NCBI RefSeq assembly: GCF_020164595.1
Contig: NZ_JAIQZE010000001.1
Span: 62,001 to 126,000, forward strand
Length of the DNA: 64,000 bases
Reading direction: 5' to 3'
Source of the DNA: Psychroflexus longus
Lineage (GTDB): Bacteria; Bacteroidota; Bacteroidia; Flavobacteriales; Flavobacteriaceae
The position numbers and the translations under genes were made by a program. Positions within the stretch are counted from its first letter, which is position 1, and every line of letters begins with the position of its first letter. Shown here in pieces: positions 7,941 through 64,000 of this stretch. The notes under the pieces were generated by a model. It was not told the origin of the DNA. It searched no databases and saw only the letters and a list, made by a program, of their open reading frames with translations.

Positions 7941-7963
7941 AATATCAGTTTTTTATAAATATG

Positions 7964-7993: not shown

Positions 7994-8113
7994 ATAAAAG
8001 ATACCTAATAACAGGTATTGACAGAGCTTGAGTTAAGTTATAATTTTACGATGTAGCATTATAAGATATTATCTATTATGTTTCATCCTATGTTTGAGTA
8101 ACTAGCTCAGAAT

Positions 8114-8144
8114 AAAAAAGCTGATTAATCATCAGCTTTTTTTT
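8114..8144 (+). terminator. Second terminator-type hairpin downstream of infB
   Basis: AGCTGAT, 5-base loop, ATCAGCT with A6 before and T8 after, so it can work on either strand. There is no recognised gene directly upstream on either strand; it may be a back-up terminator or close a small transcript from the TATGTTTG box at 8089-8096. Confidence 0.7.
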
Positions 8145-8343
8145 ATGCCTTAGCATAGTGGAGTTTAAGTTATCTATGAGTCATCTTATTTAATAAATTT
8201 TACTTTCCGCTTAGAATAAAATTTCATAGATCCTGATAAACTTCAACTCAGGAACCTTCATAGAGGTAACTAGAAATAAGTCGATTTTAAAACTGTCTTT
8301 AAAGTGCAAGAAAATAAATAAGTATAATTGTGAGGATTTTATT

Positions 8344-8405
8344 AAAAAAAAACGCTTTCAATTAAGAAAACGGTTTTTGAATCAAATTCGCCTATTAGAG
8401 CTTCC
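8344..8405 (-). repeat. Decayed copy A of tRNA-Gln 3' end plus terminator
   Basis: An A-rich hairpin (CAATTAAGAAAACGG core) followed by GCCTATTAGAGCTT, a worn version of the GGCCTACTAGGGCTC that ends the intact tRNA gene. The rest of the tRNA is not recognisable. It lies about 155 bases from copy B and about 305 from the intact gene. Confidence 0.55.
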
Positions 8406-8500
8406 CCGTATAAGATTTCTACGGTTATTTCATTTCCTTGAAATCTATCACGGGATATCAAGGCACCTCGGGACTCATCATTCTAAACTTTCTATTTGAG

Positions 8501-8561
8501 AAAAAAATCCGATCTCAATTAAGAAACCGGATTAAAATAAAGTTGGCCTACTAGGGCTCCC
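8501..8561 (-). repeat. Decayed copy B of tRNA-Gln 3' end plus terminator
   Basis: Hairpin with the CAATTAAGAAACCGG core followed by AGTTGGCCTACTAGGGCTC, identical over 19 bases to the 3' end of the intact tRNA-Gln. After this point the match stops and a TCCCGAT palindrome follows, so the tRNA body is gone. Spacing of copies A, B and the intact gene is close to 150 bases, as expected for a former tandem array. Confidence 0.7.
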
Positions 8562-8650
8562 TTCGATCCCGATACTCATCGGGACTCAGGATAAACCCCG
8601 CCTGAACGGACGGGCAGGTTCTCGCCCTTAAATACTCTCTACCAGAAAAT

Positions 8651-8683
8651 AAAAAAACCGACTTCAATTAAGAAATCGGTTTT
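8651..8683 (-). terminator. Intrinsic terminator of tRNA-Gln
   Basis: AAAACCGA and TCGGTTTT form an 8-bp stem around CTTCAATTAAGAAA; read on the minus strand it ends in a run of T. It begins 9 bases after the tRNA 3' end. Confidence 0.75.
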
Positions 8684-8692
8684 AATTTAAGT

Positions 8693-8764
8693 TGGCCTAC
8701 TAGGGCTCGAACCTAGACTCTTCTGGACCAAAACCAGACGTGTTGCCAGTTACACCATAGGCCA
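8693..8764 (-). tRNA. tRNA-Gln (anticodon TTG)
   Basis: A 72-base cloverleaf on the minus strand. The acceptor arms TGGCCTA and TAGGCCA pair over 7 bases; the anticodon stem CTGG/CCAG holds the loop TTTTGGT with anticodon TTG; the T arm contains GGTTCGAGCC. The CCA tail is not encoded beyond the terminal A. A consensus promoter precedes it and a hairpin terminator follows. It is the only intact copy of what appears to have been a three-copy tandem array. Confidence 0.95.
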
Positions 8765-8779
8765 ATAATTATTGGAGTG

Positions 8780-8810
8780 CAAATATAAAACTAACTTTCA
8801 TACCACCAAA
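8780..8810 (-). promoter_or_regulatory. Promoter of tRNA-Gln
   Basis: On the minus strand TTTG (8807-8810), exactly 19 bases, then TATATTTG (8780-8787): a perfect match to the Bacteroidota housekeeping consensus TTTG-N19-TAnnTTTG. The tRNA starts 15 bases further on. This is the best promoter in the window and a useful internal reference for the others. Confidence 0.85.
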
Positions 8811-8939: not shown

Positions 8940-11900
8940 ATGACCAAGCATGCCTTCTCACTTTGGAATAAATTATTAGGTTGGTTTGCCTTTTTGGTAG
9001 CCTTTATAACTTACTATCTCACAACAGAACCCACGGCTAGCTTTTGGGATGCTGGTGAATACATTGCAACTTCAGCAAAACTTCAGGTTGGCCATCCTCC
9101 AGGCGCCCCTTTTTATCAGATATTTGGAGCCTTCTTTTCAATGTTTGCTTCAGATGAAAGTCAGATTGCTTTTATGGTTAACCTTATGTCTGGAGTTGCT
9201 AGTGCATTTGCTATTTTGTTTATGTTTTGGTCTATTACTCTTTTATTAAAGAAGCTTACTAAAACTAACGAAATTAAAACAAATGCTTCAGACGTAGCCA
9301 TATTAGCAAGCAGTCTTATTGGTGCACTTACGTTCACGTTCACTGATAGCTTTTGGTTTAGTGCTGTGGAGGCTGAAGTCTATGCCATGGCGGCTTGCAT
9401 AATGGCTGCAATGTTCTATGTAGGCTTATTATGGGAAAGAGACATGCATAAGCCAAGAGGGAATCGTTGGTTAATTTTAATTTGCTTGATCATAGGATTG
9501 TCTTTCGGTGTTCACTTCATGGGACTATTAACCATTCCAGCTATAGGCTTTTTATACTATTTCAAAAATTATAAAAAAATTACGGTAAAAAATTTCATAG
9601 TCGCCAATTTAGTCGTTGTTGGAATTTTGCTTTTTATATTTAAACTACTCCTCCCCTACACACTTACATTTTTCGCTAAGGTGGAGGTGTTTTTCGTCAA
9701 CAGCATAGGACTACCTTTCAACTCGGGAACCATCATCGCAGGCTTACTTGTCATATCCGCATTTTATCTAGGACTTAACTACACAAGACGGAAAAACTAT
9801 ATCCATATCAATACAGTCTTACTTTGTATTTTATTTGTTTTCATAGGATTTTCGAGCTGGATCATGTTGCCTATTCGAGCAAATGCTGGAACAGTAATCA
9901 ATGAAAATAATCCAAGTAGTGCTCAGCAACTGCTAGCCTATTATAACAGAGATCAATATCCTGAAACCCATTTATTTTATGGCCCTCAATTTACAGAGAT
10001 CTTCGCAGGATTAGATCCTGATAATCCCTATCTCGATGAAGATCCTATTTATGAAAAAGATGAAGAGAAAGGCGAATATGTCATCATAAACGACTTCAAG
10101 AATGCAAAGCAGAATTCTGATGCTGCTCACAAAACCTTCCTTCCAAGAATGTGGAGCACTCAGCACGCTTCTAATTATATGATGTTCACTGGACCATTGG
10201 AATTTTCTATAAAACCAGAGTATAGAGGAGAACAAGAACTGGTGTCTGTAGTCAATACATTTAGGTCGGATTTCCAAAAGGGGGAAGTGTCTTCAGATGG
10301 ATATATCAGTTTTTTAAAACGCTTCAATCAGTATTTAGACATTGAAAAACCTTCAACAGCGTCCAACTTCTCTTATCTGTTTGAATTTCAAATGGGCTAC
10401 ATGTATTGGAGGTATTTTATGTGGAATTTCGCCGGAAGACAAAACGACAATCAAGGGAAATACACAAATTTTGACGGCAACTGGCTAAGTGGAATCAATT
10501 TCGTAGATGAAAACAGATTGGGAACACAAGAAAATCTCCCTTCAGATTTAGCTGAAAATAAAGCACGAAATACTTATTATTTTTTACCACTTATCTTAGG
10601 GTTAATCGGTCTCTTTTTTCATGCGTCCAAGGATGTCAAACGCTTTTGGGTGCTGACGGTTTTATTTTTATTTACAGGAATAGCACTGAAGATTTATCTT
10701 AATGAACGGCCTTTTGAACCTAGAGAACGAGATTATGCACTCGTTGGGTCTTTCTATGTATTTGCTATATGGATTGGTCTGGGAGTTTACGCCTTGTTTC
10801 ATTATCTGAAGAAATACATTACCCCTAAAATCGTGGCCCCAGCAGTAGGAATAATCTGTTTGCTTTGCGTGCCGGTTTTAATGGCTTCAGAAAATTGGGA
10901 TGACCACGACCGTTCAGACAAATACACTACTCTTGCCATGGCTAAAAAGTATTTGGATTCTGTAGATCAAGATGCCATCTTATTCACTATTGGGGATAAT
11001 GATACGTTTGCATTGTGGTATGCACAGGAAATAGAAGGTTACAGAACCGATGTAAGAACTATCAATACTAGTTTATTCGCCACTGATTGGTATATTGACC
11101 AGATGAGAAGGAAAGCTTATGAAAGTGAGCCTATTAAAACCACTTTGGAGCATGATGATTACAAGTATGGAACCAATGATGCCGTATGGTTTCAAGAAGA
11201 TCCAAGAATAAGCGATACACTTAGTATAGATAAGTTTATACAGTATATCAAAAGTGATAACGAAACCACAAAAGCCGAATTACAAAGCGGACTGGTAATC
11301 AATACTTTCCCAACCAAAAATTTAAGAGTTCCAGTCGATAAGGAAAAGGTTCTTAATAATGGTATTGTAAAGCCGGAAGATGCTGATTTAATCGAATCTA
11401 ACATTTACATCACTCTTGAAGATAATCTGGTTTATAAACCTAATTTGATGATGCTAGATTTATTAGCTAATAATGATTGGGATAGGCCTATTTACTTTAC
11501 CGGAGGAAGCTTTAGGGATGAAGACTATCTCTGGATGAAAGATTATCTCCAGCTCGAAGGGGTGACTTATAAGCTCACACCTATCAAGACACCTGTGAAC
11601 CCTAACAATCCATTTGATATGGGTCGTATTGACGAAGACAAAATGTACGATATCGTCATGAATTGGGAATGGGGAAATAGTGGAAGCGATGATATCTACC
11701 ATGATCCTGAAACCCGTAAAAATGCAATTACCTACAGAAGTAATCTTGCACGCTTAGTTGAAAAATTAATAAAAGTAAATAAGCTTGACAAAGCTGAAGA
11801 TGTTCTCAACTTGGGTATGAAACATATCCCTGTAAAGCATTACCAGTATTATCAATTGGTTGAACCTTTTGTGACAGGTTATTATCAAATTGATAAACCT

Positions 11901-49673: not shown

Positions 49674-50987
49674 CTATATCGCGTCAGAAAGACTGGTAAA
49701 CGTGAAGTCTCTGACTTTCATGTAAGGAATCAAATTTCCATTGATTCTTACTTGTTCCCCAAGAGCTTCCAAATTATTCAACATGATAATCGGACTTTCA
49801 TTGAATCTAAAGTTTTTCACAGGATATCTTATTTTTCCATTTTCGATGTAGAAAGTACCGTCTCTGGTAAGGCCTGTGTACAACAAAGTTTGTGGGTCTA
49901 CACTCCTGATATACCATAACCTTGTCACCAGAATTCCTCGTTTAGTACTTTTTATAAGTTCTTCGCGTGAAGCGTCTCCCCCTTCCATGATAAAGTTGGA
50001 AGGAAAAGGTACAGGATCTACTCCTTTCTCCTTAGCCCAGTACCGGCTGTAAGCCAGATTTTTGACCACTCCATTTTCTATCCACTTCATTTTTTTGAGC
50101 GGTAAACCTTCCCCATTCCACGTAGAAGTCGGCACATCGGGATGTAAAGGATCACTCCAAACATTCACACGTTCGTCAACAATTTTTTGTCCCATTTTGG
50201 TCCCATCGTCTTTGGACATGAAGCTACGGCCTTCATCGGCTGTACGGGCATTAAACGCTCCAGACATATTTCTAAGCAAGTCTGCAGATGCAGCAGGTTC
50301 TAAAATCACTGTATATTTTCCAGGTTCTATGGCTCTCGCTTCACGGGACATTACAGCTTTATCGATCGCCACTTTAGCGGCTTCTTCCGGATTGAATTTA
50401 CGAACATCATTGAAATCTCTCGAAACCCAACCCGAACCAGTGCCATCGTTGGTTCTCATGGTTACTGTAAATCCTACATCTGTAGATTTGTTGTAAGCGA
50501 ATAATCCGTTGGAGTTCAGCATAGCACTGAATCCAGATGAATCGTCCAAAAAACCGGCAGCGGTTACATCTTGTTCTGAAGCTGGATTTATACTTTTGGC
50601 TGCAACTTCTGCACGAAATTCTGGTTTGATATTCGCTGTCGCTTCCACAAAAGTAATAGAGTCATCATAAGTCTGTGGAGCCAGCGGCGCCATAAATTCA
50701 GGATTTTCTGGAGAAAGTTTTGCCAGTTCTTCAGCCCTTTTAACTACGTTTTTTAAAGATTCATCATCAAATTCGTCTACGGTTGCAGTCCCAGATTTTT
50801 TCCCATAACTGGCTTCTACGGCGAGGGTTTGATTGGAACGGTGTCCAGATGTCGAAACTGTATTTCGGGCGTAACGAATGTTTCCACTCTCGCTACCTCC
50901 CATATTGATTACACAAGCATCTGCAGTAGAAAAGCTCAAGGCTTTTTCCATGATTTGTCTTGCTTCTTCTTTGGTATATATTGCCAT
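49674..50987 (-). CDS. TldE/PmbA-type metalloprotease subunit
   Basis: A 437-residue member of the TldD/PmbA family without the HExxxH metal motif, as expected of the TldE partner. Seen: ESGNIRYARNTVSTSGHRSN near the N-terminus, GKYTVILEPAASADLLRNM in the middle and ENGKIRYPVKNFRFNESP near the C-terminus. TldD and TldE form a heterodimeric protease that trims unfolded or modified peptides. The gene is 30 bases downstream of tldD. Confidence 0.92.
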   Translation of the reverse strand: MAIYTKEEARQIMEKALSFSTADACVINMGGSESGNIRYARNTVSTSGHRSNQTLAVEASYGKKSGTATVDEFDDESLKNVVKRAEELAKLSPENPEFMAPLAPQTYDDSITFVEATANIKPEFRAEVAAKSINPASEQDVTAAGFLDDSSGFSAMLNSNGLFAYNKSTDVGFTVTMRTNDGTGSGWVSRDFNDVRKFNPEEAAKVAIDKAVMSREARAIEPGKYTVILEPAASADLLRNMSGAFNARTADEGRSFMSKDDGTKMGQKIVDERVNVWSDPLHPDVPTSTWNGEGLPLKKMKWIENGVVKNLAYSRYWAKEKGVDPVPFPSNFIMEGGDASREELIKSTKRGILVTRLWYIRSVDPQTLLYTGLTRDGTFYIENGKIRYPVKNFRFNESPIIMLNNLEALGEQVRINGNLIPYMKVRDFTFTSLSDAI

Positions 50988-51017
50988 TTCTATAATTCTT
51001 TTTTAGTTCACCGATTA

Positions 51018-52661
51018 TTAAACACTTCTACCTGTATTGATCACATTGACGCCGTCAAATCTGGAAGTAGAACTTCCATGAGAAACAGCACTTACTTGGG
51101 AAGGCTGACCTTTTCCATCGAAGAAAGAACCAAACATGCGGTAGTCGCTTTCATCACAAATTTTGGTACAAGAATTCCAGAATTCCTGTGTATTGGACTG
51201 GTAAGCGACATCATCCAGCATCCCCACGATTTCACCGTTCTTGATCTCGTAAAATACAGTTCCTCCAAACTGGAAGTTGTAGCGCTGCTGATCTATTGAG
51301 TAAGACCCACGACCTGCGATGTAAATTCCTTTTTCTACATTCTTAATCATGTCATTGATTGAGTATTTTTCTTTACCAGCTTCTAGAGAAACATTTGGCA
51401 TGCGTTGAAACTGAACATCGTTCCAACTTTGAGCATAGCAGCAACCATGAGATTCTTTTTGATCAATCATATGAACCTGATCCCGAATTGCCTGATAGTT
51501 GGTCAACACGCCATTTCTTACCAAATCCCATTTCTTGGTTTTCACCCCTTCATCATCAAACCCCACAGCCCCAAGAGAATGTTTCTGAGTTTTATCTGCA
51601 ACAAGGTTAACGATGTCACTTCCGTATTTGAAATCTCCAGATTTCCACTTATCTAATGTGGCAAAACTCGTTCCTGCATAATTGGCTTCATAACCAAGTA
51701 CACGGTCCAGTTCTAAAGGATGACCTACAGACTCATGAATAGTTAAGCCTAAATGGTTAGGTTCTAACACCAAATCGTATTTTCCTGGCTGAACTGACTT
51801 AGCCGTAAGCATTTCTTTAGCCTGCTTGGCCGCCAAGGTCGCATCTTCTACGATGTCATAACTATTGCGGTATAGTCTCAGTCCTGAAGGACCTTCCAGT
51901 TTCTCAGACTCAAGACCATCCATATATTCATACCCCATGCCCATTGGTGCACTCATGGCTTGACGGGATTTGAATTTTCCTGCTCCACGGTCTATGGCGG
52001 TCACACCGAAGGTTGGCCAAATCCTATGAATGTCCTGATCTATATAAGAACCTTCAGTAGAAGCGAAGTACTTTTGTTCATTCACCATAAACAAGGCGGA
52101 ATTCACAAAATTAGCTCCGTTTTCCATCGCAGCTGCGTTGGCGCTGAGCAATAAATCTACTTTTTCAGACACCGGAACTTTTTTAAAGTCTTTTTTAATC
52201 GGAGTTTTCCAGGACACTTCGCCATGTGATTCGACTGGGGCCAGTTGGACAGGATCTTTTTGAATTTTAGAATTCGCCTTGGCGATAGCTACCGCTTGTT
52301 GCGTAGCTTTCATGATGCCATCTTCGGTCACGCTATTTGTTGAGGCAAATCCCCAGGTTCCGTTGGCAATCACACGAATACCAATTCCAAAAGACTCAGT
52401 ATTGACCACATTTTGAACTTTGTCTTCTCTCGTAAACACATACTGGTTGAGATAGCGACCTATCCTGGCATCAGCATAAGTAGATCCCAAAGATCTCGCT
52501 GTGTTCAAAGCTACATCTGCAAGTTTCCTTTTGGTTAGGATATCCATGCCAGGCATCAAAAGTGCATCGGCTGTGATGCTACTCCCCATCATCATAGAAG
52601 GAACCAACATGGCTGCACCTGCACCCATTCCGCTTAATTGAACAAACTTTCTTCTTTTCAT
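51018..52661 (-). CDS. TldD-type metalloprotease with Tat-like signal
   Basis: A 547-residue TldD relative. The catalytic zinc motif HESVGH is at residues 309-314, inside LTIHESVGHPLELDRVLG. The N-terminus begins MKRRKFVQLSGMGAGAAMLVP, a twin-arginine-type signal absent from E. coli TldD, so export through Tat is likely and the protein may act in the periplasm. The partner TldE has no signal and could be carried along as a complex or stay inside. Confidence 0.92.
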   Translation of the reverse strand: MKRRKFVQLSGMGAGAAMLVPSMMMGSSITADALLMPGMDILTKRKLADVALNTARSLGSTYADARIGRYLNQYVFTREDKVQNVVNTESFGIGIRVIANGTWGFASTNSVTEDGIMKATQQAVAIAKANSKIQKDPVQLAPVESHGEVSWKTPIKKDFKKVPVSEKVDLLLSANAAAMENGANFVNSALFMVNEQKYFASTEGSYIDQDIHRIWPTFGVTAIDRGAGKFKSRQAMSAPMGMGYEYMDGLESEKLEGPSGLRLYRNSYDIVEDATLAAKQAKEMLTAKSVQPGKYDLVLEPNHLGLTIHESVGHPLELDRVLGYEANYAGTSFATLDKWKSGDFKYGSDIVNLVADKTQKHSLGAVGFDDEGVKTKKWDLVRNGVLTNYQAIRDQVHMIDQKESHGCCYAQSWNDVQFQRMPNVSLEAGKEKYSINDMIKNVEKGIYIAGRGSYSIDQQRYNFQFGGTVFYEIKNGEIVGMLDDVAYQSNTQEFWNSCTKICDESDYRMFGSFFDGKGQPSQVSAVSHGSSTSRFDGVNVINTGRSV

Positions 52662-53444
52662 AAAAATCTTCTGTTTTTTGATTGAATGATTTGTTTAACA
52701 ATTAAGAAAACAACAAAGTTCAAATTACGTCATGTCTTACAAAAAGTTGATTCTATTGCTATAATTCTTAATTAATGCCTAAAATAATATTTTTTACTAA
52801 ACTTTACTGCTTAATATTGAGTAGAATCTGAATGTTAACAAAAGAACAATTTGGAAGTCCATCCTTATTCTCTTTTAGAAGATTTTGCGCATCCTGAATT
52901 TATGCTCTACGATACATTTCTTAATACTTCTGGTTGACCTAAAAAATCCAGCTTGGCAAGATGACTTCTGAAGATTTTTCGGAATATTCAGAATCTGATA
53001 AGGATTCTGATGATAAAGTGTCCTGAATGAAAGTCCCAAGCCTGTTGACCATGATTTTGAATTGATCTTGTAAAATTATAATCTAATAAATATTAGAATC
53101 TATAAGAAACTCGAGGAAATGATTTTTTTTAGAGTGATTTTCAGAAATAGAATTAAAATACCTAGAAAATTATCCTGAGTAGTCATAAACTTATACTGAC
53201 CTAAATCCTGTTTATGAATCCAGACGTTCTTAAAACCCTGTCACGAGAAAAATAACACGATAACTAAAAACTATTCAAAACACCAATCCAACGTATCACT
53301 TTCAGTTGAATCTACAAACAAAACTAAATTCATTAAACTTACTTATAGCAACGAAGCAATGTATTGTAAATCACCCAATATAGAAGAAACAAAATCAAAC
53401 TAAACAGCAAAAGAATTTATTAGACAATCACTAATTAGGATTCT
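52662..53444. other. 783-base gap, decayed coding traces only
   Basis: No intact gene, hairpin terminator or clear promoter. Around 52856-52940 the plus strand reads VHPYSLLEDFAHPEFMLYDT in one frame before a stop, and short codon-like stretches (DLKNPAWQDDF; EDFSEYSESDKDSDD) follow in shifting frames to about 53080. They look like remains of a lost gene but match nothing I recognise. Confidence 0.4.
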
Positions 53445-54137
53445 TTACTTCTGCTCTAGTTTATCTTTCAAGACACTCCAGACGTTTTCTCTAACGATTT
53501 TATAACCTTCGGCGGTGGGATGAATTCCGTCGGGCTGGTTGAGTTCCGGATTGCCTGCAACGCCTTCCAAAAGAAAAGGAATAAGGGCAACATCATTTTT
53601 CTCGGCCAGTTCTGGAAAGATATTCTTAAATTCAGAGGTATAATCCTGTCCCATATTTGGAGGAATCTGCATGCCTGCAAGAACGATTTTAGTATCTGGA
53701 TTTTTGGTTTTTACTGTAATGATGATGTCCTGAAGGTTTTGCCGAGTTTCCTTCAGCGGTATTCCTCGCAGGCCATCGTTAGCGCCCAATTCTAAAACAA
53801 AAATATCTACATTTTGTTTCAATACCCAGTCTATCCGGTTTTTTCCACTGGCTGTGGTTTCACCGCTCAATCCGGCATTGACAACTTCATAATCATAGCC
53901 GAGGGAATCCAATCTGTTTTGAATTAATGTAGGGAAAGCTTCAGAAGGTTCTAAGCCCATTCCTGCCGTGAGGCTGTTCCCAAAGAAAAGAATAACATCC
54001 TTCTCGCTTTCTTTAGTTTCAGTTTCGGTTTTTGCTTCTTCAGAAGTTTTGTTTTCGGGCTGTTTTTCAGTTTTCCCTCCACAGGAAAATAGCATTAGTA
54101 CTATCATAATTGCGCCAAAGCGCCTTAAGTTTCTCAT
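53445..54137 (-). CDS. SGNH/GDSL arylesterase lipoprotein (TesA-like)
   Basis: About 230 residues. Signal with lipobox LFSC, then SGNH hydrolase blocks: ILFFGNSLTAGMGL (block I, catalytic Ser, written GNSL rather than GDSL), NAGLSGETT (block II), LELGANDGLRG (block III) and DGIHPTAEGY (block V, catalytic Asp-x-x-His). The ATG at 54137 is used; the frame extends to a TTG at 54158. It is divergent from an ABC ATPase and permease pair, the same order as tesA-ybbA-ybbP in E. coli, which suggests a shared role in lipid or lysophospholipid handling at the envelope. Confidence 0.9.
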   Translation of the reverse strand: MRNLRRFGAIMIVLMLFSCGGKTEKQPENKTSEEAKTETETKESEKDVILFFGNSLTAGMGLEPSEAFPTLIQNRLDSLGYDYEVVNAGLSGETTASGKNRIDWVLKQNVDIFVLELGANDGLRGIPLKETRQNLQDIIITVKTKNPDTKIVLAGMQIPPNMGQDYTSEFKNIFPELAEKNDVALIPFLLEGVAGNPELNQPDGIHPTAEGYKIVRENVWSVLKDKLEQK

Positions 54138-54210
54138 AACAAAGGGGTTTATAACCAAACTGTTTCTTTATTTTGTTTTCTTTTTAAGAAAGCAATAATT
54201 TCAATTACAC

Positions 54211-54897
54211 ATGGCAAAGATATTAAACGTTCACCATCTTGAGAAGAGCTATTCTAGCGGTTCCAAGAATTTAAAAGTACTGCAGGACATTAACTTTGAA
54301 GTAGAAGAGCAGAAAACTTTTGCTATCGTTGGTCCATCGGGAAGTGGAAAGACAACTTTGCTTGGGCTTTGTGCTGGCCTTGATAGCCCTGACTCTGGTT
54401 CTATAAAGTTATGCGGAAGTGAATTGAGTAATCTAGGTGAAGATGAACGCGCACTGCTTAGAAATAAACATATTGGATTTGTGTTTCAGGATTTTCAATT
54501 GTTGCCCACCCTAACGGCATTGGAAAATGTAGCTGTTCCCCTGGAACTTCAAGGTGATAAAAAAGCTTTAAAAATAGGTAAGGAATTACTGGAAAAAGTA
54601 GGTTTGGGAGACCGTATTCACCATTATCCTTCTCAGCTTTCTGGTGGCGAACAGCAACGTGTGGCTTTGGCGCGTGCTTTTTCCAACAAGCCCTCTATTC
54701 TGTTTGCAGATGAACCTACAGGAAATCTAGATGCTGAAACTGGAGAAAAAGTGGAGGAACTGCTTTTTGAACTCAACAGAGAATCTGGGACTACTCTTAT
54801 CATTGTTACCCACGATATAGAATTGGCCAATAAAACGCAGCATATATTGAGATTGAAAGGAGGGAGAATTGTGGAGAATAATGAAAAGCAGGTATAA
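54211..54897 (+). CDS. ABC transporter ATP-binding protein (YbbA/LolD-like)
   Basis: A 228-residue ATPase: Walker A GPSGSGKTTLL (about 39-49), Q-loop FQDFQLLPTLTALENV, signature LSGGEQQRVALARAF (about 140-154), Walker B ILFADEPTGNLD, switch His in IIVTHD. It belongs to the MacB/LolD/FtsE group that works with FtsX-like permeases rather than in solute import. The stop codon overlaps the permease start by one base (TAATG). Confidence 0.93.
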   Translation: MAKILNVHHLEKSYSSGSKNLKVLQDINFEVEEQKTFAIVGPSGSGKTTLLGLCAGLDSPDSGSIKLCGSELSNLGEDERALLRNKHIGFVFQDFQLLPTLTALENVAVPLELQGDKKALKIGKELLEKVGLGDRIHHYPSQLSGGEQQRVALARAFSNKPSILFADEPTGNLDAETGEKVEELLFELNRESGTTLIIVTHDIELANKTQHILRLKGGRIVENNEKQV

Positions 54898-57446
54898 TGA
54901 GTAAATCAAACAACTCAAAACCAGGTTTGAATTGGCTTTTCAAAATGGCCTGGCGAGATGGCAAGTCCAGCGGAAACAAGTTGATTCTTTTTATGGCTTC
55001 CATAGTGCTTGGTATAGCTGCAGTAGTATCTATACAATCTTTTGGAGTGACGCTAAAAGACAATATTTCGTCAGAGTCTAAAGCATTAATGGGTGCAGAT
55101 TTTAAAATTGATAGCGATGATCCTCCAAATGAGCGCGTCTTGCAAATTATGGATTCGCTGGGCGGCCCTAAAGCAGAAGAGATCAAGTTTGCATCGATGG
55201 CTGCATTTCCTCAGAATAAGGCGACTAAATTGATGCAGGTAAGAGGAATCAAAGGTGGATTCCCATTTTACGGTCAACTGGAAACAGAGCCTGAAAATGC
55301 TGCAACATCTTATCAGAATGAAGGTTCCGCATTGGTAGATGCTACCGTTATGCTTCAATTTGGAGTCCAAGCTGGAGACAGCATCAAGATAGGTAACGTG
55401 ACTTTACCGATTGCTGGCGCACTCAATTCTGTTCCAGGAAGTACGGTTATTTTCAGTTCTGTAGCACCACCAGTACTTATTCCATATCGTTTTATTGAAG
55501 AATCTGGCTTAGTACAGACAGGAAGTAGAATAGATTACGAATTTTATTTTACCGCTGATGCTAATACAGACTTAGAAAAGCTTGATAAAAAATTAGACCC
55601 GATTCTTGACGCAGAAGAGGCTGATCTTGATACCCACACCTCAACCAGTGACAGACTTGGTCGTCGCTACGAGAATTTTGGGAAATTCCTAAATCTGGTG
55701 GCGTTTATTGCTTTGCTTTTGGGCTGTGTTGGAATAGCTAGCGCTATTCATATTTACATTAAAGAAAAATTACGAGCGGTCGCTGTACTAAAATGCCTGG
55801 GAGCCAGCAAAAGGCAAACTTTTTTGATTTATCTCATTCAAGTGGCTTTTATGGGGTTTGTTGGAGGTGTGTTTGGAACAGGCCTTGGACTGCTGCTTCA
55901 GCAATTATTTCCTTATCTACTAGAAGGATTATTGCCTGTTGATGTTCAACTTACATTTTCTGTCCAAGTGATCATCATGGGAATTCTACTTGGAATGCTT
56001 ATGTCAGTCTTATTTGCTCTATATCCTCTAATTGGTACTTTATACATTTCACCATTACAAGCTTTACGCGTCATAAAGGAAAACTCTACTAAATCCAGAA
56101 AGGCTATTATTTTGGTTTCAGTGGTCATCTTTCTGTTCATATTTTTATTTTCACTCTGGCTACTGGAGGACTGGAAGTATTCACTTGCCTTTGTGGGTGG
56201 GATTTTAGCTACATTTTCAATCTTGGCAGGCATAGCCTATATGTTTATGCGGACTATTAGGAAATATTTTCCGCATAACTGGGGATTTGTAGCCAGACAG
56301 AGTTTACAAAATCTCTTCAGACCTCAAAACCAAACCTTAACACTTGTCCTTGCCATTGGCGTTGGAACTTTTTTAATCAGTACACTTTATTTCAGCAAAG
56401 ATTTATTGCTGGCACAGGCTTCTTTAGAATCTGAGACGGATAGTCCCAATATTATTCTGCTGGACGTACAAAGTAATCAAAGAGAAGATTTAGCAAAAAC
56501 CATAAACACATTCGATTTACCAGTTTTGAGTGACATTCCGATCGTGACTATGCGTGTGCAAAGCATTGCTGGTAAATCAGTTGCTGAAATCAGAAAAGAC
56601 TCCACGTCTCAGGTGAACGGATGGGTTTTAAATCATGAATTCCGCACTACCTATCGCGATTCACTTATTGCTTCGGAAACCCTCAAAAGTGGAACCTGGA
56701 CATCTCAGGCAGAAGACTTGAATCTTGTTCCCGTCTCCGTGAGTGAGAATTTTGCTGAAGATGCAAAAGTCAAAGTTGGCGATCGTTTGGTCTTCAATAT
56801 TCAAGGCGTTTTACAAGATGCGGTTGTGGGAAGTATCAGAAAGGTGGACTGGTCTAGAATGCAGCTTAATTTCTCACTTGTTTTCCCAGAAGGCCTTTTG
56901 GAAAAAGCTCCTCAATTTCATGTCTTAACCACCAAAGTGCCTGGCGATGAAAAATCTGCTGTTTTACAACAAGAATTAGTAAAAAAATACCCCAACGTAT
57001 CCATTATTGATTTAAGGCAGATCCTCAACGTCATAGAAACGCTGCTTGGTAAAATTTCCTGGATTATCAATTTTATGGCTTTCTTTAGTATTATGATTGG
57101 CATAATTGTGCTTTTGGGTGCGATACGAACCAGCAAATATCAACGCATCAAGGAAAGTGTGTTATTGAGAACACTCGGAGCCAAAGGCCGTCAAATCATA
57201 AACATTAATGCCTTAGAATATTTGTATTTAGGAATCCTTGGAGGATTATCTGGTGTTGTCTTATCTCTTATCAGCAGCCAATTATTGGCCTGGCTGGTAT
57301 TTGAATCTCCATTTGTTCCGTCACTTATCCCGGTTTTGGTCATCTTCCCTGGAATTGTTCTACTTGTCCTTGTCATAGGACTTAGCAACAGTCTAAGCGT
57401 CATCAATAAACCGCCATTGGAAGTTTTGAGGAAGGAAGTTTCATAG
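54897..57446 (+). CDS. ABC permease, FtsX-like (YbbP type)
   Basis: An 849-residue permease with two FtsX domains: one N-terminal membrane segment (about 28-50), a periplasmic domain (about 55-250), three segments (about 255-390), two central segments (about 400-455), a second periplasmic domain, and three final segments (about 715-840). Text such as LGCVGIASAIHIYIKEKLRAVAVLKCLGASKRQ and RIKESVLLRTLGAKGRQI is the repeated FtsX coupling-helix region. Length and layout match YbbP. Function of YbbAP-type systems is not settled; lipid or hydrophobic-compound extraction with TesA is a fair inference. Confidence 0.9.
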   Translation: MSKSNNSKPGLNWLFKMAWRDGKSSGNKLILFMASIVLGIAAVVSIQSFGVTLKDNISSESKALMGADFKIDSDDPPNERVLQIMDSLGGPKAEEIKFASMAAFPQNKATKLMQVRGIKGGFPFYGQLETEPENAATSYQNEGSALVDATVMLQFGVQAGDSIKIGNVTLPIAGALNSVPGSTVIFSSVAPPVLIPYRFIEESGLVQTGSRIDYEFYFTADANTDLEKLDKKLDPILDAEEADLDTHTSTSDRLGRRYENFGKFLNLVAFIALLLGCVGIASAIHIYIKEKLRAVAVLKCLGASKRQTFLIYLIQVAFMGFVGGVFGTGLGLLLQQLFPYLLEGLLPVDVQLTFSVQVIIMGILLGMLMSVLFALYPLIGTLYISPLQALRVIKENSTKSRKAIILVSVVIFLFIFLFSLWLLEDWKYSLAFVGGILATFSILAGIAYMFMRTIRKYFPHNWGFVARQSLQNLFRPQNQTLTLVLAIGVGTFLISTLYFSKDLLLAQASLESETDSPNIILLDVQSNQREDLAKTINTFDLPVLSDIPIVTMRVQSIAGKSVAEIRKDSTSQVNGWVLNHEFRTTYRDSLIASETLKSGTWTSQAEDLNLVPVSVSENFAEDAKVKVGDRLVFNIQGVLQDAVVGSIRKVDWSRMQLNFSLVFPEGLLEKAPQFHVLTTKVPGDEKSAVLQQELVKKYPNVSIIDLRQILNVIETLLGKISWIINFMAFFSIMIGIIVLLGAIRTSKYQRIKESVLLRTLGAKGRQIININALEYLYLGILGGLSGVVLSLISSQLLAWLVFESPFVPSLIPVLVIFPGIVLLVLVIGLSNSLSVINKPPLEVLRKEVS

Positions 57447-57592
57447 TATATACGCCTTAAGGATTCTAATTATACATGATTGATTACAAGTTGTTAAGAA
57501 TTGAACGAATTTTATCTGAGGATAGACATGCAACTCTCTGTAAGGTTTCTTCTGAATTTTATAAAATCAATTAAAAACGACTTATATTGAAT

Positions 57593-58375
57593 TTATTTTT
57601 TCTGCCATTCTGGAGAAAAGTAAGTGGTTCTTCCTCCGACTTTGATTTTTTCAATTTCGGCACCGGTATAGTAACAAGTCTCCCCTTCTTTTCTGAAATG
57701 CATCAGGAAATCTTTTGGAAAGTCTCGATAGTGTGCATCATTCGCAATAGCCACTTCGATTACTTTTTTCATAGCATCAAATACCGATTCAATTTCTTCA
57801 GGTGTCATGTTATCTACTCTTCTGGTGGGATGAATTTTAGATTGGTAAAGAATCTCATCTGCCATCCAATTACCAACTCCTGCAGCAACACTCTGATCCA
57901 TGATGATTTTTTTTATATCCGTTTTGCGAGCGCTTAAAGAAGACTTAAAATCCCCTAAAGATAAATCTCTGGCATCATCACTCAGCTTATGTTTCTCCTT
58001 AAAGTTTGCAATGGAATCGGTGAGATCCCACCAGCCAAATTTTCGTTTATTTTCAAAAGCAAAATGATAACCATTGTCAAAAGATAACTGAATATGACCA
58101 AATTTTGGTCGGTCGTCCTCACTCTTGTAATAATTTGGTCGACCGGTCATACCAAAATGAATCACCAGGACTTTCTCGCCTGTGGTTTCAACGAATAAAT
58201 ATTTGCCGATGCGGTGAGTCGATTTAAACTCATAGTTCAGTAAATGTTTTTCAAATTCAGTTTTAGGTTGCTTAAATAATCTTGTATCTCTGCAGTCCAG
58301 CTCAACAATACGCTGATGCAACGAGGTACTATCTATATAAGTTTTATATCCGTGTACTTCTGGTAATTCAGGCAT
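57593..58375 (-). CDS. Fpg/Nei-family DNA glycosylase with degenerate zinc finger
   Basis: A 260-residue base-excision repair enzyme. It starts MPELPEV (Pro2 nucleophile and Glu3 of the family), has the conserved Lys in RIGKYLFVE (about 57-65), VIHFGMTGR, and MDQSVAAGVGNWMADEILY (helix-two-turn-helix). The C-terminal zinc finger normally reads C-x2-C-x16-C-x2-C; here it is C234, T237, S254, W257, so only one of four ligands is left, while the DNA-contacting GGRTT (247-251) is kept. This resembles zincless-finger relatives such as NEIL1. Enzyme specificity (8-oxoguanine or oxidised pyrimidines) cannot be told. Confidence 0.88.
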   Translation of the reverse strand: MPELPEVHGYKTYIDSTSLHQRIVELDCRDTRLFKQPKTEFEKHLLNYEFKSTHRIGKYLFVETTGEKVLVIHFGMTGRPNYYKSEDDRPKFGHIQLSFDNGYHFAFENKRKFGWWDLTDSIANFKEKHKLSDDARDLSLGDFKSSLSARKTDIKKIIMDQSVAAGVGNWMADEILYQSKIHPTRRVDNMTPEEIESVFDAMKKVIEVAIANDAHYRDFPKDFLMHFRKEGETCYYTGAEIEKIKVGGRTTYFSPEWQKK

Positions 58376-58399
58376 ATTTTTTTATTTAAAGTTAAGAAA

Positions 58400-58484
58400 A
58401 AGAGTGTTTCAATTGTGGTGAAATTAGTCAAGGAAAATAATTTTTAAATCTTAATTTGGATCAAAGCAAGCAATTGACACTCTT
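58400..58484. repeat. Inverted repeat downstream of the lactate permease gene
   Basis: AAGAGTGTTTCAATTG (58400-58415) and CAATTGACACTCTT (58471-58484) are complementary apart from two extra T, with 55 bases between. It could form an extended structure in the 3' region of the lactate permease mRNA or be the trace of a small mobile element. No T tract follows. Confidence 0.4.
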
Positions 58485-58606
58485 AACATCAATATAGTTA
58501 AGAAAGTTAAAAGCCTTAAATCTTAAAGTAAACTTTAAAACAGTATTGAGAGTTTCAACTGTTATAAAGGTAAACCTAGATCGTTTTAATTTTTTCCAAT
58601 TTAATT

Positions 58607-60262
58607 TTAAACTGAAAAGGGATCGAAACCAATGTAGATCATTGTGCCTATAATTGCCGTGATGAAGAGGTAATATAAAAAAGCAGGAAGAGCATTGGTT
58701 CGTATCATTTTACCTTCTGCTCCAAGACAGCCAACTGTTGCAGCAACAGCTACTATATTGTTAATACAAATCATATTACCAATACCAGCACCTATACCCT
58801 GCATGGACAAAATTAATAATTCTGGAAAGCCTAAAATGGAGGCGGTTTCATATTGGAAAGACATAAATAATATATTGGATACCGTTGCGGAACCGGACAT
58901 AAATGTGCCTAACATACCTATAAGTGTCGAGAAAAACGGATAAGAATTACCCGACAAATCTGCAGTGGCCAATGCCATTTCTGTAAGCATGCTTTCCATG
59001 CCACTAGCATTATTTCCAGAGTTGAGCATTAGCTGTACTAAACCTACACCAGCAAGTAAAGCAATAGCAGCTCCACTAACTTGTTTAAAGGTTAGCTTCC
59101 AGGATTTTTTTATTTCTGGCAAAGGCATTTTATGATGCCATTGGGTAAATAGAGCTACTAGAATAAAAGGAATAGTTCCGGGTAAATACGCCCATTTCAA
59201 AACGTAATCCAAACCATCGATGCCCGCAACATTATTTAAAGTTAGTTGCTGATTAGCCAAAAAATCTTTGAGACCAAAGGAAGGGATTCTGGTGACGACA
59301 AGAATGATAGCTATAAGCATATATGGAGACCATGCTTTAAGTAAAGACATTTCAGCTTGGCCAGTATCTCCGGTATCACTATTGGATTTCCAGATTTTCG
59401 GCCATTTGCTTTCCTCAGGAAAATTCCAGGGTTGTTTTGGGACTAAAAAACCCTTTTTAGCAGCAACCACTACTATAATCATCCCTATAAAAGCTCCGAC
59501 TAAAGATGGTAATTCTGGTCCAAAAAAATAGCCGATCACGGCATAAGGGATCATAAAAGCAAACCCCGCGAATAAGGCAAAAGGCAGAGCCTGTAAAGCC
59601 GGCTTAAACGATTTTTCTTTTCCAAAAAGTTTAGTCAAAATAGCTATGGCTAGTATTGGAATAAAAATTCCTGCGACAGCATTGGGCAGTGCAATTGATT
59701 TTGTGAGAGCCATCATGAATGTTTCCGGATCTACTCCAGAAGCTTCTATGTTTGCTTCTAATGTGCTCATCCCTCCAAAAATTGGTGTACCAACTGCTCC
59801 AAAAGGAACGGGAACTGTATTGAAAATGAGAGCTACTAAAGCTGCTGCCAAAGGCGGAAAACCTAACCCCACCAGTAATGGTCCTGCCAATGCTGCAGGA
59901 GTACCAAACCCCGCCGCACCTTCTATAAACCCACCAAACATAAAACCAATAATTATGGCTTGTACACGTCTGTCTGTGGTAATTCCGTTAAAACCGTTAT
60001 TTATGGTCGCCATGGCGCCGGAAAGCTTTAGCGTATTTAAAATTAGAATAGCGCCAAAGATGATCACCAAAATATCAAAGGCTTTCAGAAATCCGAAAAG
60101 CGTGTAGCCGAAAACATTTTGAACATTCATTTCCCATTGAAAGAATGCAATGAGTATAGCGGAAAGAAGGGCTAAAGGAAGAGCTTTTTTAGCACCCCAA
60201 TTGAAGCCTACCATTAAAACTATAGTCAATAAAATCGGAAAGAAGGCCAATAATGCGTTCAT
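58607..60262 (-). CDS. L-lactate permease (LctP family)
   Basis: A 551-residue transporter with 12-14 membrane segments. Typical stretches: [28 protein letters not shown] is the family signature (residues about 99-126), then [29 protein letters not shown] (about 425-455) and [16 protein letters not shown]. It imports L-lactate, possibly glycolate, with protons. It is a single gene; no lactate dehydrogenase genes lie beside it in the window. Confidence 0.95.
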
Positions 60263-60373
60263 TGATAAAAATTAAGATTGGTTAGGATATACGATATGAC
60301 ATCCTAAAATTATCATTAATTTATATTTTCTGTAAATTAAATCAGTGTTTAAATGAATTAAATGACTGACTTC

Positions 60374-62422
60374 TTAAACCACATTGATTAAAGTCTCCTT
60401 TTGTGCTTTCATTTTTCCTATTGAAACCGCCTGAAGTCCATTTTCTTTGAGCAACTGTTCAACCTTCAAATGTTCACCTTCTTCAACAGAAATTAGCAGA
60501 CCTCCACTCGTTTGTGGATCGCAAAGAATTTCTTTGTAGCGCTCGTCTTTTAAACTGGTATGATGCCCGTAACTTTTCCAATTTCTATAGGTTCCCCCAG
60601 GTATGCATCCTTGTTCAATATATTTATGTACTTCATCAAATACAGGAACTTTATCAAATTGTACTTCTGCAGATAAGTGACTTCCCTCACACATTTCAAC
60701 CAGGTGTCCCAAAAGTCCAAAGCCGGTAACGTCTGTCATCGCTTTTACACCCTCGATTTTTCCGAGTTCAAAACCGATAGAATTCAGTGTGGTCATGGAT
60801 TTGGCTGCGATGTCTATATCTTTTTCATCAATTTTCCCTTGTTTGCCAGCTGTAGATAATATTCCAACGCCCAAAGGTTTGGTGAGATAAAGTTTACAGC
60901 CTTGAGTGGCTGAATCATTTCGCTTAAGGTGCTTTAGATTTATTTTTCCGGTAACCGCCAATCCAAAAATGGGCTCAGGACTGTCAATGCTATGTCCGCC
61001 TACCAGTGGACTTCCCACTCTTGAGCATACGTCACGACCGCCAGCTAATACTTCTCTGGCAACTTCCGCAGAAAGTTTATCGATCGGCCAGCCAAAAATT
61101 GCAATTGACATGATAGGCTGTCCACCCATAGCAAAAATATCACTTATGGCGTTGGTTGCTGCAATTTGTCCAAAGGTAAAAGGATCGTCGACTATGGGCA
61201 TGAAAAAATCTGTAGTAGTGATAATACCAGTGCCATCTCCCATATCGTAAACGGCAGCATCATCGCGTGTACTGTTTCCTACAATAATATTTTTATCCAA
61301 TACTTGTGGCTGATCGGTATGCAGCATCTCCGATAACAAAGCAGGTGATATTTTGCAGCCACATCCAGCTCCGTGACTATATGCGGTCAGTTTGATGTTT
61401 TCCATTTCTTTCATATGTTTTAGTATATCTAGTGCATTTTGATGATGATTCGTTGAAGCTAGTTTGAGTTTTCTTATTCTGGAAGTCATTTTTTTTTGAA
61501 TTCCAAGTAAATAGTATTTGTCGTAATAATTGAGCGTCATCAACGCCACATTATAATAATCTTTGCAAGCTAAAAAATCTAAGGCTTGTTGTGTTCTAAG
61601 TCCTCCCAGACGCTTCTTTATTCTTAGGATTCCATCCTTCAAAAACTCATCTCCACAATCTGCATACCCATTCACCAGATGTTTGGCGCGTTCTTCTTTG
61701 GGTATTTCCAAAAATAATACCTCAGCCTTATGCATTTGATGAAATAATGAGGCTGGTAAAATCACTTTACCAATATTCTGACTTTCATCCTCCAGCCAAA
61801 TGATTCTCTTTAAATCTAATTTAGAAAACTGGTACTGCAAATTGTTTTCAAATTGCTCTACACTTGGCTGTTCTCCTTGGCCAATACCCCCAAAAGCAGA
61901 GCCTTTGTGATTCGCAAAGCCTTCTAAATCTATGACCTGTTCGCCTTGTTTCTGTAATTCGTGAAGGATTTCAGTTTTCCCACTCCCCGTATAACCACCA
62001 ATAATCTTTAGAGGAAAAGACGTTTTAAAATAATCAAGAACAAAGTTTCTAAAAGCTTTGTAACCGCCTTCTATCACTTTTACTTCATCGAACCCGTTAG
62101 CCATTAAATGTTCTGCAAAAGATTGACTTCGCATCCCTCCTCTCCAACAATGAATAATTACAGAACCTTTTGAAGCTACTTTTTTTGCTTCCTGGATATA
62201 AGTTTGAAGTTTAGGATTAACATAAGTGTAGCCTAACTCAATAGCTGCTTCTTTGGATTGCTGCTTATAAACAGTTCCTACATGTACCCTCTCTTCATTA
62301 CTGAATAAAGGAATATTGTATGAATTTGGAATATGACCCTTTTCATGTTCTGAGGGAGAACGGACGTCAATAATCGGCAATTGAAGGTCTAAAGCTGCTT
62401 GTATGTTTATGAAATTAACCAT
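60374..62422 (-). CDS. MnmH-SelD fusion: tRNA 2-selenouridine synthase plus selenophosphate synthetase
   Basis: One 682-residue frame joins two enzymes. Residues 1-335 are MnmH: rhodanese domain with catalytic C92 in HCWRGGMRSQ, then a P-loop domain with GGYTGSGKT (142-150); it replaces sulfur by selenium in 2-thiouridine at tRNA position 34. From M340 onward a complete SelD follows: SHGAGCGCK with C354 and K357 at the places of Cys17 and Lys20 of E. coli SelD, then TTDFFMPIVD, AGGHSID-like VGGHSIDSPEPIFGL and DPQTSGGLL. SelD makes selenophosphate, the selenium donor MnmH uses, so product could pass directly. Sel genes for selenocysteine are not seen in the window. Start set at the ATG at 62422 (a TTG lies 6 bases upstream). 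Confidence 0.95.
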   Translation of the reverse strand: MVNFINIQAALDLQLPIIDVRSPSEHEKGHIPNSYNIPLFSNEERVHVGTVYKQQSKEAAIELGYTYVNPKLQTYIQEAKKVASKGSVIIHCWRGGMRSQSFAEHLMANGFDEVKVIEGGYKAFRNFVLDYFKTSFPLKIIGGYTGSGKTEILHELQKQGEQVIDLEGFANHKGSAFGGIGQGEQPSVEQFENNLQYQFSKLDLKRIIWLEDESQNIGKVILPASLFHQMHKAEVLFLEIPKEERAKHLVNGYADCGDEFLKDGILRIKKRLGGLRTQQALDFLACKDYYNVALMTLNYYDKYYLLGIQKKMTSRIRKLKLASTNHHQNALDILKHMKEMENIKLTAYSHGAGCGCKISPALLSEMLHTDQPQVLDKNIIVGNSTRDDAAVYDMGDGTGIITTTDFFMPIVDDPFTFGQIAATNAISDIFAMGGQPIMSIAIFGWPIDKLSAEVAREVLAGGRDVCSRVGSPLVGGHSIDSPEPIFGLAVTGKINLKHLKRNDSATQGCKLYLTKPLGVGILSTAGKQGKIDEKDIDIAAKSMTTLNSIGFELGKIEGVKAMTDVTGFGLLGHLVEMCEGSHLSAEVQFDKVPVFDEVHKYIEQGCIPGGTYRNWKSYGHHTSLKDERYKEILCDPQTSGGLLISVEEGEHLKVEQLLKENGLQAVSIGKMKAQKETLINVV

Positions 62423-62770
62423 ACACAAACATAGAGTTTATTAATAGTCCTTTAAATTATGAATGGAAGTTTTCACTTTAGTTTATTAATTGAATGCTAA
62501 CTAATAATTCAATAATAGTTTTAAGGAAAACGTAGGCTGTCTAAAATATTTTAAAAAATGTATAAACTTTGATTTGAAAGGCCTGCTGATGAATATTGAA
62601 TAAGGGCTTTAAAATATTTTCATAAAATATAATAAATGACTTGTTGGTCCACGCAGTCAGTTCTATATTGGAAATGAGTTAGATTATTTTTACTAAAAAT
62701 ATTTAATAATGAATTGAAATCATTACAGATAGTCGGATTATGAATAATAGTGACCGCAAATTTTTAATTA
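62423..62770. other. 348-base intergenic region
   Basis: AT-rich gap between the divergent mnmH-selD and the 195-residue gene. Apart from the promoter at 62426-62456 no hairpin terminator, coding frame or clear TAnnTTTG box on the plus strand was found. Confidence 0.5.
62426..62456 (-). promoter_or_regulatory. Promoter of the mnmH-selD fusion gene, nearly leaderless
   Basis: On the minus strand TTTA (62453-62456), 19 bases, then TATGTTTG (62426-62433), a perfect -7 box. The start of transcription expected 5-7 bases after the box falls at or within a base or two of the ATG at 62422, so the mRNA would have almost no leader. Confidence 0.6.
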
Positions 62771-63358
62771 ATGAATAAAGTAAATTTACCCTCTACCCAA
62801 GTTGAAAATTTCATCTACTGCCTTGAAGCCGTTCAAGATGCAGACACTACTCGATCCACTGAGGTAGTAAAAATCCTGGAAGATATGGCGTTAACTCAAG
62901 ATATAAGCAGTATTTACAAAGCTTGTGATACCATGGAAGGACTTGAGGAAAGTTTAAGTTATTTGTTGTATGATGACCATAACTTCAAAGATTATGAAAT
63001 CATCTACTTGGTCCTGCCGGGTGATTCCAATACTATTTTGATTAATGATTACCACTATAGCATTGAAGAGATAGCAGAACTTTTTGAAGGCAAAATGAAA
63101 GGGAAAGTCATACATTTTTCCAACAAAAAAGTTTTGGATCTTACCGATGAAGAGTCTCAGTATTTCCTTGATGTGACTGGCGCGAGAGCCATATCGGGAT
63201 ACGGATTTCAATCTGAAAGCATGTCGAGTGCATTTACAATCGACAGGGCCTTTTTCAGCTTGTTTTATGAAAATGATGACCTTAGAGATGTCGTAGAAAT
63301 AATGTTCCAAAAGCATTATAAACTCTGTAAACTGCTTGACTTTAGGTTGTATTATTAA
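62771..63358 (+). CDS. Unknown protein, possibly DUF6642-like with lost catalytic residues
   Basis: A 195-residue soluble protein. Its order of features (FIYCLEAV near the N-terminus, EESLSYLLYD, YEIIYLVLPGDSN, KGKVIHFSNKKVLDL, FLDVTGARAISGYG) follows what I recall of DUF6642 proteins, which have a caspase-like pattern with His-Gly after the first strand and a Ser-Cys after HFG. Here those places read PG and SNKK, so any protease function would be lost. The family call is tentative. The gene stands alone, divergent from mnmH-selD. Confidence 0.5.
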   Translation: MNKVNLPSTQVENFIYCLEAVQDADTTRSTEVVKILEDMALTQDISSIYKACDTMEGLEESLSYLLYDDHNFKDYEIIYLVLPGDSNTILINDYHYSIEEIAELFEGKMKGKVIHFSNKKVLDLTDEESQYFLDVTGARAISGYGFQSESMSSAFTIDRAFFSLFYENDDLRDVVEIMFQKHYKLCKLLDFRLYY

Positions 63359-63535
63359 TAAACCCTTAATGCCTATTAAGATTTTATTTACTCTTTGGTA
63401 TAATAGATTTCAAAAATTATAAAGAGGTTGATCAATTAGATGGATTTTAAGACTTTAAATCACTACAAATAAATACTACTTATTTTTGAATAGTATAGTT
63501 TGTGAATTCTGTTTTATTTTAGTGTTTAGAGTGAC

Positions 63536-63568
63536 AGAAAAAAGAAGGCTGCTCTTGAGAGCAGCCTT
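63536..63568 (-). terminator. Intrinsic terminator of the last (partial) gene
   Basis: AAGGCTGCTC, 4-base loop, GAGCAGCCTT: a perfect 10-bp stem that on the minus strand is followed by CTTTTTTCTG. It lies about 70 bases after the stop of the gene that enters from the right edge. Confidence 0.8.
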
Positions 63569-63636
63569 TGTTATTACTTAGCAGAGATCTTATTAAAATC
63601 TATGCTAAAGTTTGAATTTAAATATTGCAGTTAAGT

Positions 63637-64000
63637 TTACAGACCACAACTTTCATACAAACTTCCCAAATTACTTACAGGAGTAAAATTCGTATCGAAG
63701 CTAGGTCCATAAACGGTCCTAATATCTACACGGTCTACAACCCATTTCCAATCCTTAGGAGTAATTAAACCATTTTTCATTTCTTGTCCATCTTTTGTGA
63801 AAGTGGAAGGCGTAAACATATTACCCATTGTAAGGTCAAATATGCCGTCATTTCCATCTACACCTAGATTTGCATCATATGGATTTAGAAGAAAATATGT
63901 AAAGTCTGGAGCATTAGTAATATCAACCTTTACGGTTTTCACAATACCATTTCCCGTTACATCGTTACATCTAGCATTTACAAAACCGCTATTAGTGTTA
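63637..64000 (-). CDS. 3' part of an unknown gene cut by the window edge
   Basis: The frame is open to the edge (121 codons seen; the first start-like codon, a GTG at 63942, is internal). The visible C-terminus is polar and beta-rich, with RCNDVTGNG, DANLGVDGNDGIFDLTMGNMF and a final SLYESCGL; the two cysteines may pair. It looks like an exported or surface protein, but no family is recognised. Confidence 0.6.
   Translation of the reverse strand, partial: NTNSGFVNARCNDVTGNGIVKTVKVDITNAPDFTYFLLNPYDANLGVDGNDGIFDLTMGNMFTPSTFTKDGQEMKNGLITPKDWKWVVDRVDIRTVYGPSFDTNFTPVSNLGSLYESCGL

Follow-up and report, generated by a model that had tools for sequence, protein, structure and literature searches.

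Can one gene hold both the enzyme that makes selenophosphate and an enzyme that consumes it, and if so, how did such a gene arise and what would it do for the cell? Selenophosphate is a labile selenium donor, and whether it is handed over directly from selenophosphate synthetase (SelD) to the enzymes that use it is, to our knowledge, an open question. The window analyzed here, a stretch of 64,000 nucleotides from the 2.95-Mb genome (43 contigs) of Psychroflexus longus, carries a gene that the initial annotation had described as two complete enzymes in one frame. We consider it very probable that this gene specifies one bifunctional enzyme, born from an overlapping mnmH–selD pair, that makes selenophosphate and uses it for tRNA.

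Two complete enzymes in one reading frame

The mnmH–selD fusion gene is located at 60374..62422 on the reverse strand (682 codons plus stop). Open reading frame analysis of this interval gave a start ATG at 62422 and a 682-residue frame with no internal stop, in which a full MnmH (tRNA 2-selenouridine synthase) is followed, nearly without a linker, by a full SelD. The MnmH part (residues 1–335; 61418..62422, reverse strand) comprises rhodanese and P-loop domains, the rhodanese domain being matched by Pfam at residues 14–125. In hmmscan with NCBIfam it scored 361.2 bits for NF008750 over residues 12–336 (cut-off 241) and 337.4 for TIGR03167 (cut-off 219.75), and the sister MnmH models NF008749, NF008751 and NF008752 scored under their own cut-offs on the fusion protein. 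The SelD part (residues 340–682; 60377..61405, reverse strand), which has PDB relatives such as 3u0o, scored 529.6 bits for NF002098 over residues 340–678 (cut-off 299) and 437 for TIGR00476 (cut-off 125). Pfam recognized only rhodanese, AIRS and AIRS_C on the fusion protein, and scans for promoters and terminators gave nothing above chance.

Residues were mapped by pairwise alignment with SelU and SelD of Escherichia coli K-12 (NC_000913), with 126 of 324 aligned residues identical in the MnmH half and 189 of 345 in the SelD half. C92 (62147..62149, reverse strand) corresponds to C97 of E. coli MnmH (SelU), which is required for selenation according to the available text of PMC4830565. The Walker A motif (P-loop) GGYTGSGKT occupies residues 142–150 (61973..61999, reverse strand), with the Walker motif of SelU aligning at 143–150. 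In the SelD half, the catalytic loop HGAGCGCK (residues 350–357; 61352..61375, reverse strand) contains C354, C356 and K357, the counterparts of C17, C19 and K20 of E. coli SelD, and D51 corresponds to D388; the enzyme is thus the Cys form of SelD. Further conserved aspartates are D405 and D428, and we take the conserved aspartates of this half to have a metal-binding role. The motif DPQTSGG was located in the sequence at residues 635–641 (60500..60520, reverse strand). The claim of two complete enzymes in a single gene was therefore borne out, with both halves above their NCBIfam cut-offs and the catalytic residues kept, and every sequence feature listed in the initial annotation (C92, the P-loop, C354, K357 and DPQTSGG) was found in its place.

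Occurrence of the fusion within Psychroflexus

Among 27 Psychroflexus genomes, searched with E-values up to 1e-20, the fusion was present in four, separate adjacent genes were present in two, and 21 had no match. The fused copies of P. curvus CAK1W, P. lacisalsi KACC 14089 and an uncultured Psychroflexus metagenome-assembled genome (MAG; G005) were 99, 91 and 69% identical to the copy in the window, respectively. The MAG copy ends at residue 640, where its contig ends, and another contig, with a 92-bp overlap at 98.9%, supplies the remainder. A stop or frameshift at 61405–61420, which the initial annotation had named as the sign of two separate parts, was looked for; none was found, and the same unbroken junction exists in the three other genomes. 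A single frameshift or misassembly would suffice to join genes that overlap, but the junction is open in four genomes, including those of the named isolates P. curvus and P. lacisalsi and a divergent MAG; this recurrence rules out an assembly, sequencing or frameshift error as the source of the fusion, and the probability that we leave to it is negligible.

The two unfused mnmH–selD pairs of the genus (G021 and G025; loci L060 and L061; about 53% and 61–62% identity) sit on a different branch of the tree from the fused copies, and the selenouridine trait thus exists in two distinct forms within Psychroflexus. When the window copy was compared with that of P. lacisalsi, dN/dS values of 0.08 (MnmH part), 0.12 (30-codon junction) and 0.03 (SelD part) were obtained, and from this one informative pair we conclude that both halves are under purifying selection; the comparison with the MAG copy was unusable, as synonymous sites were saturated in both halves.

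Rarity of the fusion beyond the genus

The fusion is rare, in line with the initial annotation, which had called the two genes separate in the organisms known to it: among 103 distinct loci that encode both enzymes, only 4 were fused, all of them in Psychroflexus. The unfused loci had mnmH followed by selD on one strand in 90 cases, selD followed by mnmH in 3 and opposite strands in 6. This count, from which 22 recognized duplicate loci and three E. coli loci were excluded, came from searches seeded by the fusion protein and covers mostly Bacteroidota, and it is not a census. Matches were found in 3 of 397 genomes of the family sample (E-values up to 1e-30), 17 of 395 of the order sample (1e-100), 21 of 395 of the class sample (1e-140) and 65 of 395 of the phylum sample (1e-30), each count including the genome of the window and that of P. 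curvus. Full-span matches outside the genus numbered 8 in the phylum, 2 in the order and 18 in the class sample, with some genomes shared, and each contained at least one stop. Wherever the DNA of the locus was examined, these matches proved to be separate open reading frames; the others were judged from the match rows alone.

Several candidates for further fusions were rejected. Open frames of 740–862 were indicated for the pairs of G807, G454 and G052 and for SelD of G786; in a six-frame check the three pairs resolved into separate open reading frames, and the G786 frame was a NifS-like–SelD protein. Nine stretches of viral contigs matched the peptides, and none was a relative. Matches occurred in 184 plasmid records, 7 of which had a place covering at least 80%; among the 40 plasmid matches listed, the best (Runella) was annotated as two genes and six others were in two pieces, a form that is no strict exclusion of a fusion. 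In a contig scan, the best 80 of 90 relatives included three fused loci, all from Psychroflexus; the scan was queried with two MnmH peptides, which favors close relatives, and phyla other than Bacteroidota were hardly sampled. Many mnmH–selD pairs of the class and phylum samples share a frame with a single stop between the genes, so that one stop loss would fuse them, and no stop-loss fusion of such same-frame pairs was seen in these two samples.

Origin of the fused gene

According to the available text of PMC2432076, ybbB (mnmH, selU) often lies in one operon with selD. The separate adjacent genes of Bacteroidota encode the same enzymes in the same order as the fusion, often overlapping, and differ from it in that the two proteins are made separately, either in different frames or in a shared frame interrupted by a stop. 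Of the 90 pairs, 42 overlap by 1–44 bp, 35 are 0–50 bp apart, 12 are farther apart and one (L193) yielded no start codon, distances that depend on the simple rule by which start codons were chosen. The nearest unfused relative among the best 80 of 90 is a Mongoliibacter MAG (66% identity for MnmH and 76% for SelD), whose sequence comes from a contig with a coverage of about 6x according to the contig title. Its selD overlaps mnmH by 29 bp in a different frame, and 2 bp fewer separate its conserved MnmH tail from the selD ATG than in the fusions. One net frame-changing indel in such an overlap would likely explain the fusion, with the loss of only the out-of-frame tail of MnmH.

The number of fusion events was considered with a tree of 43 rows (SelD above 59% and MnmH above 50% identity; duplicates and, by hand, L084, L099, L100 and L102 omitted). 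In the joined tree, the four fusions were grouped beside Mongoliibacter; the support for the fused group was weak (87/49), and that for the five-member group of the four fusions and Mongoliibacter was 100/100. In the SelD-only tree, the MAG fusion was more distant than Mongoliibacter from the three isolate fusions (window, P. curvus and P. lacisalsi), which speaks against a single event and for two fusion events or a reversal. The trees taken together are compatible with one fusion or two, and also with a reversal in Mongoliibacter.

The junction itself was delimited by comparison of the fusions to residues 334–342 (61397..61423, reverse strand); it reaches from where the conserved tail of MnmH stops to the former start of SelD, and its sequence differs among the four. 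An ATG at codon 337 overlapping a TGA was considered as a relic of the overlapping stop and dropped, as P. lacisalsi has no ATG337. M340, the old selD start codon, is unchanged in all four fusions and the residues around it vary, as would be expected if internal initiation at this codon yielded a separate SelD besides the fusion; invariance in just four sequences, of which one pair is 99% identical, nevertheless carries little weight, and we regard internal initiation as unlikely.

The join may also be nothing but a translational unit, a harmless and neutral by-product of gene overlap in which the two enzymes work independently. Overlapping or touching pairs are so usual under the heuristic starts that a chance merger would be easy, and the variable junction agrees with this reading. 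Against it, the frame has stayed open in the 69% identical copy and in a copy at another locus, and the consumer has been placed on the mobile N-terminus of SelD, which in E. coli is needed for SelA docking (PMC7595633, available text). We give the neutral reading not quite an even chance.

Probable lateral transfer of the fusion gene

The moved unit would be the block common to the window and P. curvus (60306..62570; 2269 bp), which is 97.6% identical despite differing surroundings; the rest of window positions 50001–64000 had no match in the 15 kb around the P. curvus gene. The gene order of the window is shared with P. lacisalsi. Two proteins near the fusion gene show a different pattern: for a long permease-like membrane protein (54897–57446, named by eye), identity was 95% with P. 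lacisalsi but 84% with P. curvus, and for a DUF6642 protein it was 96 and 82%, respectively. This DUF6642 protein, of unknown function, lies beside the fusion gene at 62771–63358 on the forward strand and has a match in 13 of the 27 genomes of the genus. A lactate permease also adjoins the fusion gene; it is whole in the window (58607–60262) and broken into several open reading frames in P. lacisalsi (L058, about 7380–8785).

In P. curvus, the shared block ends at an element with integrase-core and HTH_21 proteins (L059, about 8955–10217), which we take to be of the IS3 type, and a perfect 21-bp direct repeat (L059, 6657–6677 and 10586–10606) flanks the block together with this element. The repeat is possibly the footprint of the move, and the P. 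curvus sequence would most simply be read as a recent lateral transfer in which little more than the fused gene moved. Compared with P. curvus, the gene in the window (60377–62422) has 5 differences in the 1089 bases of codons 1–363 and 39 in the remaining 957, and this uneven divergence probably reflects recombination inside the fusion gene.

Selenium use in the genome

The genome has one SelD; of its two remaining AIRS proteins, one is a ThiL that passes the family cut-off, and the other is PurM-like and falls short of its own. MnmA, which provides the 2-thiouridine substrate, is present (377.6 bits; cut-off 236.95), so that SelD and MnmH in the fusion gene together with MnmA make up the markers of the selenouridine (SeU) trait. 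The initial annotation had proposed a search for selA and tRNA-Sec, and neither was found among the 27 Psychroflexus genomes: SelA had no match in any of them (1 of 14 control genomes passed the cut-off), and no tRNA-Sec was above the gathering score. The selenocysteine (Sec) trait, defined by SelA and tRNA-Sec, is thus absent from these 27 genomes as judged by its markers.

Selenophosphate made by the fusion might also feed selenoproteins or selenium-dependent molybdenum hydroxylases, the latter a trait marked by YqeB and YqeC, and sub-threshold matches to the tRNA-Sec model in all 27 genomes could be read in this way. However, these are such as ordinary tRNAs would give, none passed the gathering score, and all 14 controls likewise had matches, of which 5 passed and 9 were in the same sub-threshold state; with SelA also unmatched in the 27 genomes, we consider another selenium use very improbable. 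With no SelA match, no tRNA-Sec above cut-off and one SelD, tRNA is likely the use of selenium in this organism, and the earlier suggestion that selenium serves tRNA only is supported on the markers searched.

Comparison with known SelD fusions

A fusion of SelD with an NADH-dehydrogenase-like protein (Ndh–SelD) is described in PMC2398784, PMC2432076 and PMC4561486. It resembles the Psychroflexus protein in that SelD has an N-terminal partner, and differs in that the partner is proposed, in the text available, to act upstream of SelD (reduction), whereas the Psychroflexus partner uses the product of SelD; furthermore, all Ndh–SelD fusions detected in PMC2398784 have CxxC, whereas the Psychroflexus fusion has CGC. 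A NifS–SelD fusion is described from Geobacter sp. FRC-32 and others (PMC2398784; PMC4561486), likewise with an N-terminal partner on SelD; NifS delivers selenium to SelD, whereas MnmH is a consumer. The Psychroflexus fusion belongs to neither type, having no pyridine-nucleotide oxidoreductase or class-V aminotransferase domain in Pfam. Both types were encountered in our searches. A pyridine-nucleotide oxidoreductase–SelD fusion adjoins mnmH in Defluviimonas (L131, 5120–7312, reverse strand), and neighbors in L134, L140, L141 and L145 look similar, judged solely on their length and their match to SelD; a NifS-like class-V aminotransferase is fused to SelD at L053 (3617–5836, reverse strand) in the same phylum.

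More distant cases are the SelD-like–acylphosphatase fusion of Thermoproteales (PMC4210487), in which a SelD relative is likewise joined to another domain but the partner is a different one and the SelD-like family is thought to act in sulfur metabolism, and the Methanococcales, in which the gene structure of MnmH is altered by a split into two genes (PMC4561486; PMC4830565), whereas the Psychroflexus MnmH is whole and joined to SelD. As far as its text was available, the systematic search for SelD fusions in PMC4561486 gives NADH-dehydrogenase-like and NifS-like partners and, for protists, a methyltransferase domain as well as an extension in Plasmodium. An MnmH–SelD fusion is not named in the available parts of PMC5322559, PMC9312934, PMC2276186 and PMC4210487. 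No description of one was found in the full-text literature, a search outside which lay most subscription journals and supplements, including that of PMC4561486, and nothing useful was found there on Psychroflexus and selenium; the fusion sequence may be in protein databases under an automatic name.

Proposed mechanism

The fusion is intact, its catalytic residues are conserved, both halves are under selection, and its genome has no SelA match. The protein is probably an active two-enzyme protein, as judged from its sequence. In the predicted structure, which is a confident one (80-row alignment; mean pLDDT 90.6, pTM 0.76), a helix of residues 326–341 spans the junction, and the lowest confidence falls at residues 353–356, within the SelD catalytic loop. 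The SelD half matched E. coli SelD (3u0o_A) with an E-value of 8.5e-41 and a TMt of 0.95, as expected for the SelD fold; for the MnmH half, a PDB sequence search returned only 3g5j, a 134-residue chain of the rhodanese part. At this pTM, the model leaves the mutual orientation of the two halves unfixed.

Considering the above results, we infer the following model. A short indel just ahead of the selD start would have merged the frames of an overlapping pair, with no catalytic part lost. The C-terminal SelD half would convert selenide and ATP to selenophosphate, with which the N-terminal MnmH half would turn the MnmA-derived 2-thiouridine at tRNA position 34 into 2-selenouridine, probably through a geranylated intermediate. 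The MnmH chemistry, C97 and geranylation have support in PMC4830565, although the same paper, in its available text, also argues against a geranylated intermediate; the chemistry is likewise supported by the available text of PMC9105526. As described in the available text of PMC7595633, SelD proteins form dimers, the loop at their N-terminus that bears the catalytic Cys and Lys becomes ordered upon substrate binding, and the N-terminus of E. coli SelD takes part in the interaction with SelA. The fusion protein would probably also be a dimer, with two MnmH arms adjoining the mobile N-terminal loop in which the SelD catalytic residues lie.

In the fusion, MnmH is attached 14 residues ahead of the SelD catalytic Cys, and this geometry suggests direct hand-over of selenophosphate. 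The SelD N-terminus is covalently tied to the consumer, in a genome with no SelA match. It is plausible that the fusion couples the making of selenophosphate to its use and would help to retain scarce selenium. More tentatively, and with clearly less than an even chance, the gene may be a self-sufficient selenouridine module, in which selenophosphate is transferred within the polypeptide via the mobile SelD N-terminus, no docking is needed and the complete trait spreads as one gene.

Implications

In the common known bacterial SelD fusions, the partner acts before SelD, whereas in the Psychroflexus fusion it acts after SelD. As a natural fusion in an organism for which a second use of selenium has so far not come to light, it offers a clean system in which to test direct transfer, and its interest would be higher if hand-over within the protein is true. 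It is also a possible single-gene tool to install 2-selenouridine in laboratory strains. The loci compared here also display the likely steps from adjacent genes to overlapping genes, to a fused gene and to a laterally moved gene.
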